A stretch of 64,000 bases of DNA, taken from positions 868,001-932,000 of the forward strand of contig NZ_JACCCV010000001.1 of the NCBI RefSeq assembly GCF_013410115.1, given 5' to 3'. This stretch comes from Tunturiibacter gelidiferens (GTDB lineage Bacteria; Acidobacteriota; Terriglobia; Terriglobales; Acidobacteriaceae). Of the stretch, positions 46,253-51,067 are shown piece after piece; positions within the stretch are counted from its first letter, which is position 1; each line of letters starts with the position of its first letter. The notes beneath the pieces are model-generated. The model had not been told where the DNA came from and ran no database searches. It saw only the letters and a list, made by a program, of their open reading frames with translations. The position numbers and the translations under genes are program-made.

Positions 46253-46972
46253 TCAGAACTCATCGTCGCCGGTAGGGCGAAAACGATAGCCGATCCAAGG
46301 CTCGGTGACGATATACGCGGGCTCTTCTGTGAGCTCGATCTTCTTTCGCAACTGGCCAATGTTGACGCGCAGATACTCCGGCTGATCGGCGTTCGTTCCC
46401 CAAACCGCGTGAAGCAACGCTCGATGCGTCAGGACCTGTCCGGGGTGCTGCGCCAGGCACACGAGAAGGTCGAACTGCTTCGGTGTCAGGTGCGTGTCTT
46501 GCCCGCGAACTGCTACTCGGTGCTGCGGAATATCGATATAAAAATCGCCTGCTGAGATGACCTGCGGGGCGTCGGACTCGGTAGCCGAACTGCGGCGGAG
46601 TTGCGCGCGGACGCGAGCCTGCAGCTCCTGAATGCTGAATGGTTTCGTCACGTAGTCGTCCGCGCCGGCGTCCAGCGCTTCGATCTTCATGGCCTCTTGA
46701 TTGCGGACCGAAAGAACAATGATCGGAACCTTGGATACAGCTCGAATCTCGCGGCAAAGCTCAATCCCGTTCATCTCAGGCATGGAGACGTCTGTAACGA
46801 CGAGATCTGGCTTCCACGTATGCACAGCCTCCATTCCCTCAACGCCGTTCGCAGCGATGCGCAACGAATAGCCTTGCGTCGAAAGCGCCGTGCGAAGTAC
46901 GCGAGTGATCTGCGCCTCGTCATCCACGATAAGAATCTTTGCATGTTGCTGGCCTTCCAGGTTTTGTTTCAT
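46253..46972 (-). CDS. kdpE: Response regulator, KdpE-type (OmpR family)
   Basis: A 239-residue regulator. The receiver holds LIVDDEAQ, phospho-acceptor Asp61 in VVTDVSMPEMNG, and ADDYVTKPF. The winged-helix domain ends with LRKKIELTEEPAYIVTEPWIGYRF, closely like KdpE. Its ATG overlaps the stop of the KdpD N-terminal gene by four bases. It should control kdpFABC, but no such operon is in the window. Confidence 0.92.
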   Translation of the reverse strand: MKQNLEGQQHAKILIVDDEAQITRVLRTALSTQGYSLRIAANGVEGMEAVHTWKPDLVVTDVSMPEMNGIELCREIRAVSKVPIIVLSVRNQEAMKIEALDAGADDYVTKPFSIQELQARVRAQLRRSSATESDAPQVISAGDFYIDIPQHRVAVRGQDTHLTPKQFDLLVCLAQHPGQVLTHRALLHAVWGTNADQPEYLRVNIGQLRKKIELTEEPAYIVTEPWIGYRFRPTGDDEF

Positions 46973-48123
46973 TCGCGCTCCGGATGTTGCGTGACGATGT
47001 GGACATCCACATTCGGCGACTCTTTGAGAAAGTGCTGAATCGCCCAGTAGTAAAGGTATTTGCGAAGGCCGTGGACGGCAGTACGGCCGAAGACGATATG
47101 AGTGATGCGCTTTTCGCGAACAAAACTGGCCGCAGCGTGGGCGATGCTCTTTCCCTTAACGGAGAACACCTGCGCATCCATATTGCGTGCGAACTGGATG
47201 TTAGCCGCTAGCGTAGCTTTTTCTTCTTCCAGCAGGTCTTCATCATCGTCGACATGCAGAACAAACAGTTCGCCTCCTACGCCTTCCGCAACGCGTGCGC
47301 CGCGTGCGATCAACATCTGCGAGGAACTGTTGGAACTGATGCAGACAGCCACGCGTTCGCGCACCGCCCAATGCGCCTCGATGCGTTTCGCGTCCATATA
47401 GGCCGTCAATGTGCGATCGACCGCCTTCGTGACATGTTGCAGCGCCAGTTCACGGAGCGCGATCAGGTTTCCGCGACGGAAGAAGTTTGCCAGGGCTTTT
47501 TCAGCACGAGCCGTTCCATAGACATCTCCGCGACGCATCCGTGTCTGCAGAGCTTCGGGCGTCAGATCGGCCATCACGATCTCGTCCGCGCGTTGCACTA
47601 GCCAATCCGGGACGGTCTCGCGGATGATCACGCCGGTCACACTCTGGACGGTTGGCGCGACACTCTCGATGTGCTGCACGTTCATCGTGGCCAGGACGTC
47701 GATGTTGGCGGCCAGAACGTCGAGCACATCTTCATATCGCTTGCGATGTTTGGTGCCCTCGATATTGCTGTGCGCCAGTTCGTCGATCAGAACGATCTGG
47801 GGCCGACGCGTAAGGATGCCATCGAGGTCCATCTCCTCGAAGACCACGCCTTTATACTCAATCCTTCTACGCGGAACCTGCTCCAGTTGCTCGGCCAACT
47901 CGGCAGTACGGGGTCTGCCGTGCGTCTCGACCACCCCGATGACAATATCCTCCCCACGCTGATGCCGGCGGATCGCCTCGCTCAACATGTTGTATGTCTT
48001 GCCGACGCCGGGCGCATAGCCGAGGAAGAGTTTGAAGGTCCCGCGCATCTTCTCCGGTGCGACCTTCTCCAGCCATTCCTCCGGGCTCTTCAACGCCGGA
48101 TTCGAGTTATCGCGAGTGCCCAT
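46969..48123 (-). CDS. KdpD N-terminal sensory protein (no kinase domain)
   Basis: A 384-residue protein equivalent to the N-terminal half of KdpD. Walker A is YAPGVGKTYNML and Walker B IVLIDELAHSN, followed by a USP-like domain (~250-375) with VAVCISSNSSSQ and ITHIVFGRTA. Full KdpD is about 890 residues and adds a membrane/DUF4118, GAF and kinase part. Here that part is a separate gene on the opposite strand, starting 17 bp away. It forms an operon with kdpE. Confidence 0.93.
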   Translation of the reverse strand: MGTRDNSNPALKSPEEWLEKVAPEKMRGTFKLFLGYAPGVGKTYNMLSEAIRRHQRGEDIVIGVVETHGRPRTAELAEQLEQVPRRRIEYKGVVFEEMDLDGILTRRPQIVLIDELAHSNIEGTKHRKRYEDVLDVLAANIDVLATMNVQHIESVAPTVQSVTGVIIRETVPDWLVQRADEIVMADLTPEALQTRMRRGDVYGTARAEKALANFFRRGNLIALRELALQHVTKAVDRTLTAYMDAKRIEAHWAVRERVAVCISSNSSSQMLIARGARVAEGVGGELFVLHVDDDEDLLEEEKATLAANIQFARNMDAQVFSVKGKSIAHAAASFVREKRITHIVFGRTAVHGLRKYLYYWAIQHFLKESPNVDVHIVTQHPERE

Positions 48124-48140
48124 AAGGATAAGATAATGGA

Positions 48141-49592
48141 GTGCAGCGAAAGCTTATACGCAGTATCGTCCGCTACAGTATCTCCACAGCGAGCGCAGCT
48201 GTCATTGTAGCCGTCTACTTTCTTCGGCTGCATGTCAACGAAACCACAGTAGCCCTGACATTCCTGATAGGCATCCTTCTCGTAGCCGCGAACTGGGGTC
48301 TACGCCACTCGATCTACCTGTCTATTCTCTCAGCGGCTGCATTCAACTTCTTCTTCCTTCCGCCGGTCCTCACCTTCACCGTTGGGGACGGTCGCAACTG
48401 GGTCGCCCTGTTCGCATTTCTAGTGACCGGCATCGTCGCCAGCCAGCTTGCGGAACGGGCGCGACGCGAAGCAAAGATATCGCGCCGCCGCCAGCGCGAG
48501 GCGGAACGGTTATACGAGTTCAGCCAGCAAATGCTGGTGACCGGCAACGTGATCGATCTCCTCAATGTCCTGCCGCAGATGATCGCCGTGACCTTCAACC
48601 TTACGGGAGCCGCCGTTTACCTCCGCGAAAAAGATCGCATCTACCGCTCCAGTCCTGATTACATGGACGTAACCGCCTCCGAACTGCGTGATGCAGCGTT
48701 CACCCGCGACCATCGTTATGACGAAGCGCGCGCCGTCACCCTCGTTCCAATCCTCCTCGGAACGCGTCCCATCGGCGCAGTTGGAATCACGGGCAATAGG
48801 ACCTCGCCCGAGGCGCTCGACGCAGTCTGTGGCCTGGCAGCTATCGCCATCGAACGCGCCGGTGCCGTCGAGACCCTCACGCGCGTCCAGGCCTCACGCG
48901 AAAGCGAGCGCCTGCGCAACGCGTTATTGGATTCTGTCGCGCACGAACTCCGAACGCCCCTGACCTCGATCACAGCCGCCGTCACCACCTTGCGCAGCGA
49001 GCCCTCCCTCGATGCAGAGCAAAGCGGAGAGATGTTGCAGGTTATAGAGGAGGAGGCCGCCCGTTTGGACCGACTCGTCGGTCAGGCGATGGAGATGGCG
49101 GAGCTGGATGCAAACGACATCAAGCTCGACCTGCGCATGCACTCCATGCGAGAGGCGGTTGATCTTGCGCTCGAGGCCGTACAGGGACCGCTCAAAAACC
49201 ATCCCCTCGAGCTCCGCCTCCCCGACACCCTTCCTCCCGTGCAGATGGACCTCGAGCGCATCGCCAAAGTACTGCAGCATCTGTTGGAGAACGCCGCTAA
49301 ATACTCCGCAGAGGGAAGCCCCATCTTCGTCAGCGCCGAAGTCTCCCGAGGCCAGCTCGTCACCAGCGTCGCCGATCGTGGCGCAGGAGTTGACGATCTC
49401 GAGAAGATGATGATCTTCGACAAATTTTACCGCGGCCAGGGCCAAAGATATCGCGTGCAGGGAACAGGCATGGGACTCGCCATCGCGAAGGCGATCGTCG
49501 AAGCCCACGGCGGCTCCATCGACGTCACCAGCCAGCCGTCACAGGGTTCCGTCTTCTCCTTCTACCTGCCCCTGAATCTCTCCGGCCGCTAA
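48141..49592 (+). CDS. Sensor histidine kinase, KdpD C-terminal half (DUF4118-GAF-kinase)
   Basis: A 483-residue kinase. Four membrane segments of the DUF4118 type occupy ~12-102 (FFLPPVLTFTVGD is a KdpD-like loop). A GAF-like region follows (~130-245), then HisKA with His268 in LLDSVAHELRTPLTSI, and HATPase_c with LLENAAKYSA, VADRGAGVDD and GTGMGLAIAKAIVEAHGGS. It starts at GTG 48141, divergent from the KdpD N-terminal gene. Together the two equal one KdpD. Signals and partner KdpE are inferred from family knowledge. Confidence 0.92.
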   Translation: MQRKLIRSIVRYSISTASAAVIVAVYFLRLHVNETTVALTFLIGILLVAANWGLRHSIYLSILSAAAFNFFFLPPVLTFTVGDGRNWVALFAFLVTGIVASQLAERARREAKISRRRQREAERLYEFSQQMLVTGNVIDLLNVLPQMIAVTFNLTGAAVYLREKDRIYRSSPDYMDVTASELRDAAFTRDHRYDEARAVTLVPILLGTRPIGAVGITGNRTSPEALDAVCGLAAIAIERAGAVETLTRVQASRESERLRNALLDSVAHELRTPLTSITAAVTTLRSEPSLDAEQSGEMLQVIEEEAARLDRLVGQAMEMAELDANDIKLDLRMHSMREAVDLALEAVQGPLKNHPLELRLPDTLPPVQMDLERIAKVLQHLLENAAKYSAEGSPIFVSAEVSRGQLVTSVADRGAGVDDLEKMMIFDKFYRGQGQRYRVQGTGMGLAIAKAIVEAHGGSIDVTSQPSQGSVFSFYLPLNLSGR

Positions 49593-49612
49593 AACTTCCT
49601 GTAGTCGTGAAA

Positions 49613-51067
49613 CTAGAGCTTCGGCAACTGAGTCACGTTCCAACCACCACCCAGCGCCTTGATCAAAAGCACGCTCGCATCCATCTGTCTGCGCATAATG
49701 TCGATGTCGTTCCGCTCGTTATTCAACTCGGTCGTCTGAGCGGTCACAACCTGAAGATAGGTATCGAGCCCGCCCACATATCGATTGTTGAATATCTGCG
49801 CAGCAGACTGTGCCGCCATCGTAGCCTGACGCTGATGCCCCGCCTCCTGATCGAGAACCCGCAGAGCAACCAGATTGTCTTCGACCTGTTGAAACGCCGT
49901 CAAAGTAGTCTGTCGGTAGTTCGCAACGGTCTCATCGTAGCTGGCATTGGCCTGTTCGGACACAGAGGCTCGACGTCCCGCGTCGAATACCGTCTGCGAG
50001 AGTGTAGGTCCCAGCGACCACAATAGACTCGCCGGATCGAAGAGGTTCGCAAACGAGGTTCCCTCCACACCAACCGTTCCGCTCAACGAAATTGTCGGAT
50101 AGAACGCAGCCCGCGCAATGCCGATGCGATCGTTCGCCTCAGCGACGCGGCGTTCCGCCGAAGCAATATCCGGGCGTCGCTCCAGCAGCTCCGAAGGTAG
50201 TCCAGTCGGGATCATCGGAGGTCGCGCATCTAGAGGAGCGCTCGGCAACGCGAACGAAGCCGGGGGCTCCCCAAGAAGAATCGCAATCGCATGCTCGAAC
50301 TGGGCTCGTTGCAGAGTAATGTCACGAGCCAGTACCTTCGCTGCCTCCAGCTGAGTCTGCGCCTGATCGACGTCCGACTTCGGAGCGACGCCTCCTTCAA
50401 AGCGGTTCTTCGTGATCCGGTAGGCCTCTTCGAAGTCCTTCACGGTATCGTTCAACAGCTTCTCCTGGGCATCGGCGCTACGAGCTTCGAAGTAGTCGAT
50501 GGCAAGCTCGGCCTGCAGGCTCAATAGCACCGTCTGTCTATCTCCCGCGCTCGCCTGCGCCTCCTCCCGCGCAGCACTTACTGTGCGACGAACGCGCCCC
50601 CACACATCAATCTCATAGCTTAAGTCCACCGGTAGTTGAATCACGCCGACGCCGTTTCCTTGCGCGTTGTTCACATTGAAGTACGGCTGGTTTGACGACT
50701 CACGTGAGCCTCCGGCGGACGGTGCTACCCCAACGGTCGGATACAGAGATGCGTGGTTGAAGCGGATCAAGGCCCGTGCTTCGCGGAAACGAGCATCCGC
50801 CGCCTTGAGATTCTGGTTATTCTCCGCCACCTGCGGCTCCAGAACATTTAACTGCGTATCGCCAAAGATCGTCCACCACTCTCCGCGCAGCGCCGCATCG
50901 GCCGGCTGCGCAACCTGCCAGTTCGAGTTTTCTTTGTAAGCGTCCGGTCCTGCTTCCTTATACCCGGGTGTCATGGGAACCGATGGCTTCACGTACTTCG
51001 GCCCGACCATGCATCCGCTTAGCAGAAACACCGCGGCGCTGGCCAGAGCGCTGGGTCGTAGCGTCAC
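49613..51067 (-). CDS. RND efflux outer-membrane lipoprotein (NodT/OprM family)
   Basis: A 484-residue TolC-like outer-membrane factor. The N-terminal lipobox LLSGC at about residue 19 marks lipidation. Two TolC-type repeats follow (ALRGEWWTIFGDTQLNVLEPQV; RRPDIASAERRVAEANDRIG), and long helices carry the usual Ala/Gln pattern. It is the last gene of the adaptor-permease-channel set and overlaps the adaptor by four bases. Confidence 0.92.
   Translation of the reverse strand: MTLRPSALASAAVFLLSGCMVGPKYVKPSVPMTPGYKEAGPDAYKENSNWQVAQPADAALRGEWWTIFGDTQLNVLEPQVAENNQNLKAADARFREARALIRFNHASLYPTVGVAPSAGGSRESSNQPYFNVNNAQGNGVGVIQLPVDLSYEIDVWGRVRRTVSAAREEAQASAGDRQTVLLSLQAELAIDYFEARSADAQEKLLNDTVKDFEEAYRITKNRFEGGVAPKSDVDQAQTQLEAAKVLARDITLQRAQFEHAIAILLGEPPASFALPSAPLDARPPMIPTGLPSELLERRPDIASAERRVAEANDRIGIARAAFYPTISLSGTVGVEGTSFANLFDPASLLWSLGPTLSQTVFDAGRRASVSEQANASYDETVANYRQTTLTAFQQVEDNLVALRVLDQEAGHQRQATMAAQSAAQIFNNRYVGGLDTYLQVVTAQTTELNNERNDIDIMRRQMDASVLLIKALGGGWNVTQLPKL

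Follow-up and report, generated by a model that had tools for sequence, protein, structure and literature searches.

How are the two halves of one sensor protein expressed when their genes point away from each other across a gap of only 17 bp? This question is raised by a kdp locus of Tunturiibacter gelidiferens (family Acidobacteriaceae) that lies within a 64,000-nucleotide stretch of contig NZ_JACCCV010000001.1 (C1:868001-932000; the whole of this stretch is referred to here as the window). KdpD is encoded at this locus not as one chain but as two polypeptides on opposite strands, namely KdpDN, the KdpD/Usp half (384 residues, ATG start), and a membrane histidine kinase (483 residues, GTG start). 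We consider it probable that this is a naturally split KdpD in which the halves diverge from a single shared -10 element, that the two resulting mRNAs are leaderless, and that the response regulator KdpE, encoded behind KdpDN, acts on a distant kdpFABC operon.

Two halves of KdpD and the spacer between them

The first-pass annotation had described a KdpD split into two divergent genes, with 17 bp between the start codons and the KdpD/Usp gene coupled to kdpE, and the coordinates of the open reading frames (ORFs) bear this out (Table 1). KdpDN matches the Pfam KdpD domain (PF02702; 6e-90, 300.7 bits) and has Walker A and Walker B motifs, and its Usp domain is marginal (24.4 bits versus a Pfam cut-off of 24). 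The kinase carries DUF4118, HisKA and HATPase_c by Pfam. On a full-length KdpD model of 895 positions, KdpDN covers positions 6-373 and the kinase 406-883, which points to a single cut in the linker between Usp and the membrane part. Because each chain is only a part of KdpD, both fall below the 1123-bit cut-off of the NCBIfam full-length KdpD model NF007793, with KdpDN at 321.5 bits and the kinase at 208.3 bits. The best model for KdpDN is NCBIfam KdpD_non_kinase (363 bits, under its cut-off of 550 bits), while the best curated model for the kinase is KdpD itself, at the score just given, and the sensor part of the kinase matches the solved chain 2ksf, 'Sensor protein kdpD' (E 1.5e-4). The kinase is thus not a member of a non-Kdp family, an outcome for which the first-pass annotation had allowed. 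A sequencing or frameshift artefact of a normal KdpD is likewise ruled out, both by the opposite strands and by the occurrence of the same layout in many genomes, with the 17-bp arrangement in 17 of 22 close loci.

Modelled on its own with AlphaFold2 from 17 rows, the kinase gives a mean predicted local distance difference test score (pLDDT) of 80.1 and a predicted template modeling score (pTM) of 0.42. The model places N-terminal helices at residues 2-30, 34-52, 54-71 and 84-133 and, judged by eye at this pTM, a GAF-like order of elements at 137-217, after which come the histidine and ATPase parts. The Pfam match to GAF_3 (E 0.0021) is below cut-off. The histidine of the HELRTP motif, H268, is invariant in the 17 rows. 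Elsewhere in the genome there are two further DUF4118 matches (C1:2404786-2405085 and C1:1047662-1047943). No further ATG, GTG or TTG was found in the kinase frame between its GTG and the FFFLPP motif; the KdpDN frame has two later possible starts, 10 and 25 residues downstream, and relatives keep the first ATG.

The case for a shared promoter draws on conservation of the spacer in a close set of 22 loci, which consists of the window, five loci of the same genus and 16 named loci, the nearest being from Edaphobacter and Granulicella (KdpD/Usp identity up to 97%). The 17 loci with a 17-bp spacer have 15 distinct spacer sequences, and all 15 (17 rows) fit N5-TANNATA-N5, a pattern that was written after the spacers had been seen. 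Only columns 6, 7, 10, 11 and 12 of the spacer are invariant, and in the flanking codons (15 of the kinase and 9 of KdpDN) the third position varies everywhere except in the start codon of each gene. The core reads TANNAT on the plus strand, 6 nt before the GTG, and TATNNT on the minus strand, 6 nt before the ATG, and in the window the -10-like boxes of the two strands have 5 of their 6 bp in common. Since this invariant core is in register with both start codons, both transcription starts would fall on the start codons. A distance of 18 bp between the two starts would result, in which -11A on one strand pairs with -7T on the other, and in bidirectional promoters 18 bp is the commonest spacing between starts, with coinciding -11A and -7T (PMC10268837; PMC12825309).

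Messages that begin at their start codons would be leaderless. TA boxes located ~10-12 bp before the start mark leaderless bacterial genes, and Acidobacteria are among the phyla named in this connection (PMC3160421). KdpDN has the features of such a gene, in that a TANNNT box stands at this distance in all 15 of the distinct 17-bp spacers and a Shine-Dalgarno-like 4-mer at 4-12 nt in none of them. Before the kinase, a Shine-Dalgarno-like 4-mer at 4-10 nt is found in one of the 15.

Similar boxes accompany the two genes more widely in the family, for which the sample was 150 genomes (126 with the KdpD domain PF02702 and 120 with KdpA). Homologous starts were set by alignment for 86 divergent loci, and four loci of genus g58 (L064, L086, L099 and L101; L numbers denote loci and G numbers genomes) were excluded for having no kinase start 64-70 residues before the motif. 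Removal of near-copies reduced the remaining 82 loci to 74 non-redundant ones, with the window folded into L037. Spacer lengths fall mostly into two clusters, 16-17 bp and 47-60 bp, and in a midpoint-rooted KdpDN tree of 81 rows a single 16-row group (support 92/90) holds all 13 of those with 16-18 bp. A TANNNT box ends 5-8 nt upstream of the kinase start codon in 67 of the 74 loci (300 shuffles: mean 2.35, maximum 8). KdpDN's own box, scored at 5-9 nt before its start by a rule that omits the first T and was chosen after data inspection, is present in 41 of the 46 spacers of 47-60 bp (shuffles: mean 3.4, maximum 10), and TCGACA or TCGACT lies 17-18 bp further upstream of the box in 32 of the 46. 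An alternative function for TANNATA is that of a regulator binding site rather than a -10 element, given that it is nearly palindromic and near both starts. In spacers longer than 60 bp, however, the boxes are separate and each tracks its own start codon as a promoter would (kinase box at 5-8 nt in 10 of 12, KdpDN box at 5-9 nt in 8 of 12), and we regard a regulator site as the least probable of the explanations considered here.

A model for the operation of the locus can be proposed from these features. The two activity modules of KdpD would be separate proteins, one the soluble KdpD/Usp chain and the other a membrane histidine kinase with DUF4118 and GAF-like parts, and both genes would fire from one nearly symmetrical -10 element in the spacer. 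RNA polymerase bound in one orientation would begin the kdpDN-kdpE message at the A of the ATG, and polymerase bound in the other orientation would begin the kinase message at the G of the GTG, giving two leaderless messages with starts 18 bp apart. Each binding of polymerase would yield one sensor half or the other, and competition would set their ratio. We propose only tentatively, as an idea that may well prove wrong, that competition for one -10 element in 17 bp fixes the ratio of the halves while the serine-kinase half takes its K+ signal from the membrane kinase in trans. If the model is correct, this would be about the most compact divergent promoter possible, with the start codons at the spacing favored by -10 symmetry. 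Bidirectional -10 promoters, for which Warman 2021 is said to be the founding paper, would have here a natural system in which to address their purpose, one that makes two parts of a single signalling complex. Moreover, each of the two kinase activities of KdpD could be removed singly with the other chain untouched.

Possible promoters within the facing genes

The first-pass annotation had reasoned that each promoter must either lie inside the other gene or be shared, and the conserved core of the spacer favors the second of these branches over the first. A number of observations nevertheless count against a shared element. Five of the 22 close loci are without the 17-bp spacer (L034, L036, L180, L181 and L184); the spacer of L034 is 12 bp, with the kinase box present and the minus-strand KdpDN box absent, and that of L036 is 25 bp by one measurement and 22 bp by another. 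In a sister subclade with 16-17-bp spacing, a Shine-Dalgarno-like motif stands 9-12 nt before KdpDN in six of the seven distinct spacers and a KdpDN box is scored in just two of them, which suggests that KdpDN may be transcribed there from inside the kinase gene. When 4-12 nt is considered for the kinase, a Shine-Dalgarno-like 4-mer is found in seven of the 15 distinct 17-bp spacers, and AGGA at 12 nt in six; the AGGA 12 nt before the kinase GTG in the window is outside 4-10 nt yet inside 4-12 nt. With the first T required, the KdpDN box is found at 5-8 nt in only four of the 74 family loci. A consensus-rule promoter scan misses the shared box (4/6 matches per strand, with a poor -35); its one minus-strand site lies within the kinase gene (48205-48177) and has 9/12 matches (shuffles mean 0.1). 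Finally, a genome-wide match to the core plus both start codons is found at this site alone, but a backward control gives two matches, so there is no enrichment.

Three of these observations would suit a mixed arrangement in which the kinase message is leaderless from TAAGAT and the promoter for kdpDN-kdpE lies inside the kinase gene, with antisense overlap of the two transcripts. They are the minus-strand site of the promoter scan, the Shine-Dalgarno-like motifs of the sister subclade with the same spacing, and the disparity between the strands when the first T is required (kinase box in 67 loci versus four for KdpDN). We consider the mixed arrangement unlikely, although it deserves to be kept in mind. 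The internal site holds 9/12 matches only in the window and its nearest relatives, which make up six of the 15 distinct 17-bp loci, and has fewer in the other nine, whereas TANNATA is present in all 15. Column 12 is invariant even though TANNAT on the plus strand does not need it, and it is this column that gives the -12 T of the minus-strand box. The lack of any Shine-Dalgarno-like motif before KdpDN in the 15 spacers and the KdpDN box near the start in 41 of the 46 relatives with 47-60-bp spacers also argue for a KdpDN promoter in the spacer.

A further alternative is that each promoter lies inside the other gene. Each mRNA would then carry a leader, and the two would be antisense to one another at their 5' ends. 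Such an arrangement would accommodate the fact that two separate promoters cannot fit in a 17-bp gap, and a weak -35-like hexamer for the kinase does occur within the KdpD/Usp gene (TTGTCG or TTGTCA in several relatives). AGGA is found 12 nt before the kinase start in six of the 15 spacers. The invariant core, however, is at the place typical of the -10 boxes of leaderless genes, and KdpDN is without a Shine-Dalgarno-like motif. We therefore find two internal promoters quite improbable and continue to favor one shared -10 element.

The probable kdpFABC target and the putative potassium signal

KdpA (C1:25589-27307) and the KdpD domain each occur once in the genome, and kdpA, kdpB and kdpC lie together at ~C1:22.9-27.3 kb, on the same contig as the window locus and ~0.89 Mb from it. 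The first-pass annotation was right in that no kdpFABC is visible in the window. Its suggestion that the sensor may be wired to something else has fared less well, as the operon is on the same contig and is preceded by the genome's one match to a four-half-site KdpE-like box. The box (C1:27663-27699) consists of four TTTA-like half-sites with an 11-bp period, in a pattern defined once 19 upstream sequences had been read; with up to 3 mismatches allowed, it has this single match in the genome and none in the control, and neither four-half-site nor two-half-site matches were found in the window. The kinase would phosphorylate KdpE, which would then act on kdpFABC ~0.89 Mb away through this box. 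The best model for the kdpE product is KdpE (NF007820; 204.8 bits, below its cut-off of 325), and its assignment as KdpE follows from model rank, the operon and the box.

In relatives, the box is within 4 mismatches in 11 of 15 close kdpFABC loci and not within 7 in the other four (L036, L178, L180 and L184), and where kdpE and kdpFABC are linked in close loci it precedes kdpFABC within 4 mismatches in eight of 12. The best site in 102 kdpA upstream stretches of the family has 5 mismatches or fewer in 30 (0 of 306 shuffled), 6-7 in 11 and at least 8 in 61, so the four-half-site box is not universal in this form. A two-half-site pattern was rejected as too loose (20 forward and 20 reverse matches versus 14 and 14 in the control). 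Two overlapping two-half-site matches in L255 have no obvious potassium gene adjoining them in the ORF list.

The distance between sensor and pump may have its explanation in L176, where kdpFABC lies between kdpE and a GYF_2-type gene and the opposite flank carries the same RND and outer-membrane genes as the window. From this gene order, kdpFABC appears to have been relocated together with its operator in the window's lineage, which suggests a KdpDE system whose pump operon moved away with the operator kept. Loss of the Kdp regulon is not favored, as both kdpFABC and the KdpE-like box are present. It could also be argued that the kinase and KdpE have left the Kdp regulon for another target, such as the adjoining RND pump, and that kdpFABC is now under a nearby sigma-54-type regulator. 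The distance of kdpFABC, the RND and outer-membrane genes that adjoin the kinase in relatives too, and the sigma-54 activator and kinase gene upstream of kdpFABC here and in G133 would agree with such a change, but the kinase has RND and outer-membrane neighbors in L176, L179 and L183 as well, all of them loci with a linked kdpFABC, and the activator is not seen in the stretch from G149. Together with the single genome match of the box before kdpFABC, its absence from the window and its presence in eight of 12 close linked loci, this makes a change of target very unlikely in our view.

Upstream of the distant kdpFABC and on the same strand (L033:7279-11150) are genes for a cNMP-binding/DUF1003 protein, a histidine kinase and a sigma-54-type response regulator. 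The set is present in G133 (L249) too, and none was seen in the stretch fetched from G149 (L250). The sigma-54 activator and the kinase encoded with it could also act on kdpFABC. A small ORF of 28-34 residues beginning MWD (MWDLGCVGASVFFFVIAIGYTTGCERLGMKEKQG in this genome, L033) lies upstream of kdpF in 16 of 19 loci, and it is possible that it encodes an extra small membrane protein of the kdp operon.

The genome thus contains a whole split-KdpD set, comprising the KdpD/Usp chain, the transmembrane (TM)/kinase chain, KdpE and KdpFABC (kdpF by eye). KdpD of E. coli inhibits KdpFABC post-translationally via serine phosphorylation (PMC11018627). Since the Walker A and B motifs of KdpDN and the TGES motif of KdpB are kept, post-translational inhibition as in E. 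coli is likely here, and by analogy KdpDN most likely phosphorylates the conserved serine of TGES. The E. coli residue W39, which takes part in adenine binding (PMC11018627), is apparently a tyrosine here, judged by eye. In E. coli, the N-terminal part of KdpD interacts with the C-terminal part and is needed for repression at high K+ (PMC2714519). Our preferred possibility for KdpDN is that contact in trans with the membrane kinase would convey the K+ signal to it.

A search of the genome for diadenylate cyclase (PF02457) gave no match, and if the enzyme is truly absent, Usp-bound cyclic di-AMP (c-di-AMP) would not be the signal for KdpDN; c-di-AMP is consequently not favored for this genome. 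PF02457 matches occur in 76 of the 150 family genomes. By spacer length, no cyclase is found in the 14 genomes with 12-18 bp or the 7 with 19-40 bp, while 38 of the 46 with 41-60 bp and 8 of the 12 with longer spacers have one, an association that probably reflects shared ancestry.

Layout across the family and comparison with known systems

The divergent layout that the first-pass annotation singled out is not unusual in the family and is in fact the commonest, as a gene-order survey of relatives found it in 84 of 125 genomes and 41 genera. The survey covered 125 of the 126 genomes with PF02702 (G129, a contig-edge piece, was left out, as were some second loci in other genomes), and the divergent class, at first 86 loci, became 87 when L130, in which the mechanical ORFs overlap, was added by hand. 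Of the 87 divergent loci, 78 have kdpE behind the KdpD-Usp gene in the same orientation, and 59 have KdpA within the fetched stretch. KdpD-Usp lies directly behind another kinase in 35 of the 125 genomes and forms tandem pairs in eight; a small number of genomes belong to two classes, and seven loci (contig edge or ambiguous) to none. A phmmer comparison with the window kinase served to class the kinases that have no DUF4118. The preceding kinases in the 35 genomes (e.g., L039-L046 and L251-L254) are of 429-637 residues, plus one of 170, and the nine that were checked with Pfam are all HAMP-PAS kinases, with DUF4118 in none.

In four of the genomes with KdpD-Usp behind a kinase, the kdpA locus was fetched, and a DUF4118-type kinase adjoins kdpE and kdpFABC there on the opposite strand. 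Several of the tandem pairs (L055, L060, L160-L164 and L168) are downstream of kdpABC, with no DUF4118 kinase directly adjoining. In the actinobacterial loci L225 and L229, KdpD-Usp diverges from a DUF4118-type kinase with kdpE on the kinase side, possibly as an independent split. In the window, an outer-membrane efflux gene converges on the kinase gene, and 20 bp separate the ends of the two (49592-49613).

Table 1. Features of the split kdpD locus, in window coordinates.
Feature	Position	Strand	Remarks
kdpE, OmpR-type response regulator	46253..46972	-	4-bp overlap with the KdpD/Usp gene; best NCBIfam model KdpE
KdpDN, stand-alone KdpD/Usp half (putative serine kinase module)	46969..48123	-	Walker A GYAPGVGKT, Walker B IVLIDE
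Weak -35-like TTATCG for the kinase gene	48107..48112	+	Within the KdpD/Usp gene, 16-bp spacer; by eye, absent from promoter-scan output
17-bp spacer between both start codons	48124..48140	.	N5-TANNATA-N5 in close relatives; proposed shared bidirectional promoter core
TAAGAT, -10-like box of the kinase gene	48129..48134	+	6 nt upstream of GTG; identical box in L037
TATCTT (minus strand), -10-like box of KdpD/Usp	48130..48135	-	6 nt upstream of ATG; identical box in L037
Histidine kinase half of KdpD: DUF4118 (four helices), GAF-like, HisKA, HATPase_c	48141..49592	+	

Stand-alone KdpD N-terminal proteins, which the first-pass annotation had mentioned, are in print. KdpD is described as a tandem serine/histidine kinase that in some species is split, most often into KdpD/Usp and TM/GAF/DHpCA chains (PMC11018627). 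The T. gelidiferens locus encodes this pair of chains too, with the division likewise falling after Usp and before the membrane part, and Walker A/B and TGES are kept. The split KdpD is thus already known as a published type, and the divergent layout is common in the family. The section of PMC11018627 on split KdpD is silent on gene order and promoters, and the paper proposes c-di-AMP as the signal for short KdpD, whereas no diadenylate cyclase was found in the present genome. A parallel in gene organization is the kdp region of Deinococcus radiodurans, where the KdpD N-terminal and kinase halves are on separate genes with the kinase oppositely oriented (PMC5716572). In that account, the kinase is accompanied by a response regulator and KdpD-N is in the kdpBAC operon, whereas in T. 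gelidiferens KdpDN is with kdpE and directly faces the kinase. The KdpE-like box resembles the E. coli KdpE site, TTTATA-N5-TTTACA (PMC3264566), in its TTTA half-sites and 11-bp period, and differs from it in having four half-site-like elements instead of two.

What looks to be new is the spacer as a shared two-way promoter. A leaderless divergent kdp pair was not found in the titles and abstracts searched, subscription papers being mostly beyond reach. The lysG/lysE pair of Mycobacterium tuberculosis also has divergent, overlapping promoters, of which the second lysE promoter is leaderless (PMC5648196); the spacer described for that pair is 108 bp, however, and the two genes are not both leaderless from one box. 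There is also a likeness to the bidirectional -10 promoters of PMC10268837 and PMC12825309, with which the T. gelidiferens spacer would have in common a shared -10 element, starts 18 bp apart and coinciding -11A and -7T, given transcription starts at the start codons. The difference from the published bidirectional -10 promoters is that the two starts here would be the start codons of two sensor halves, with no untranslated leader on either message.

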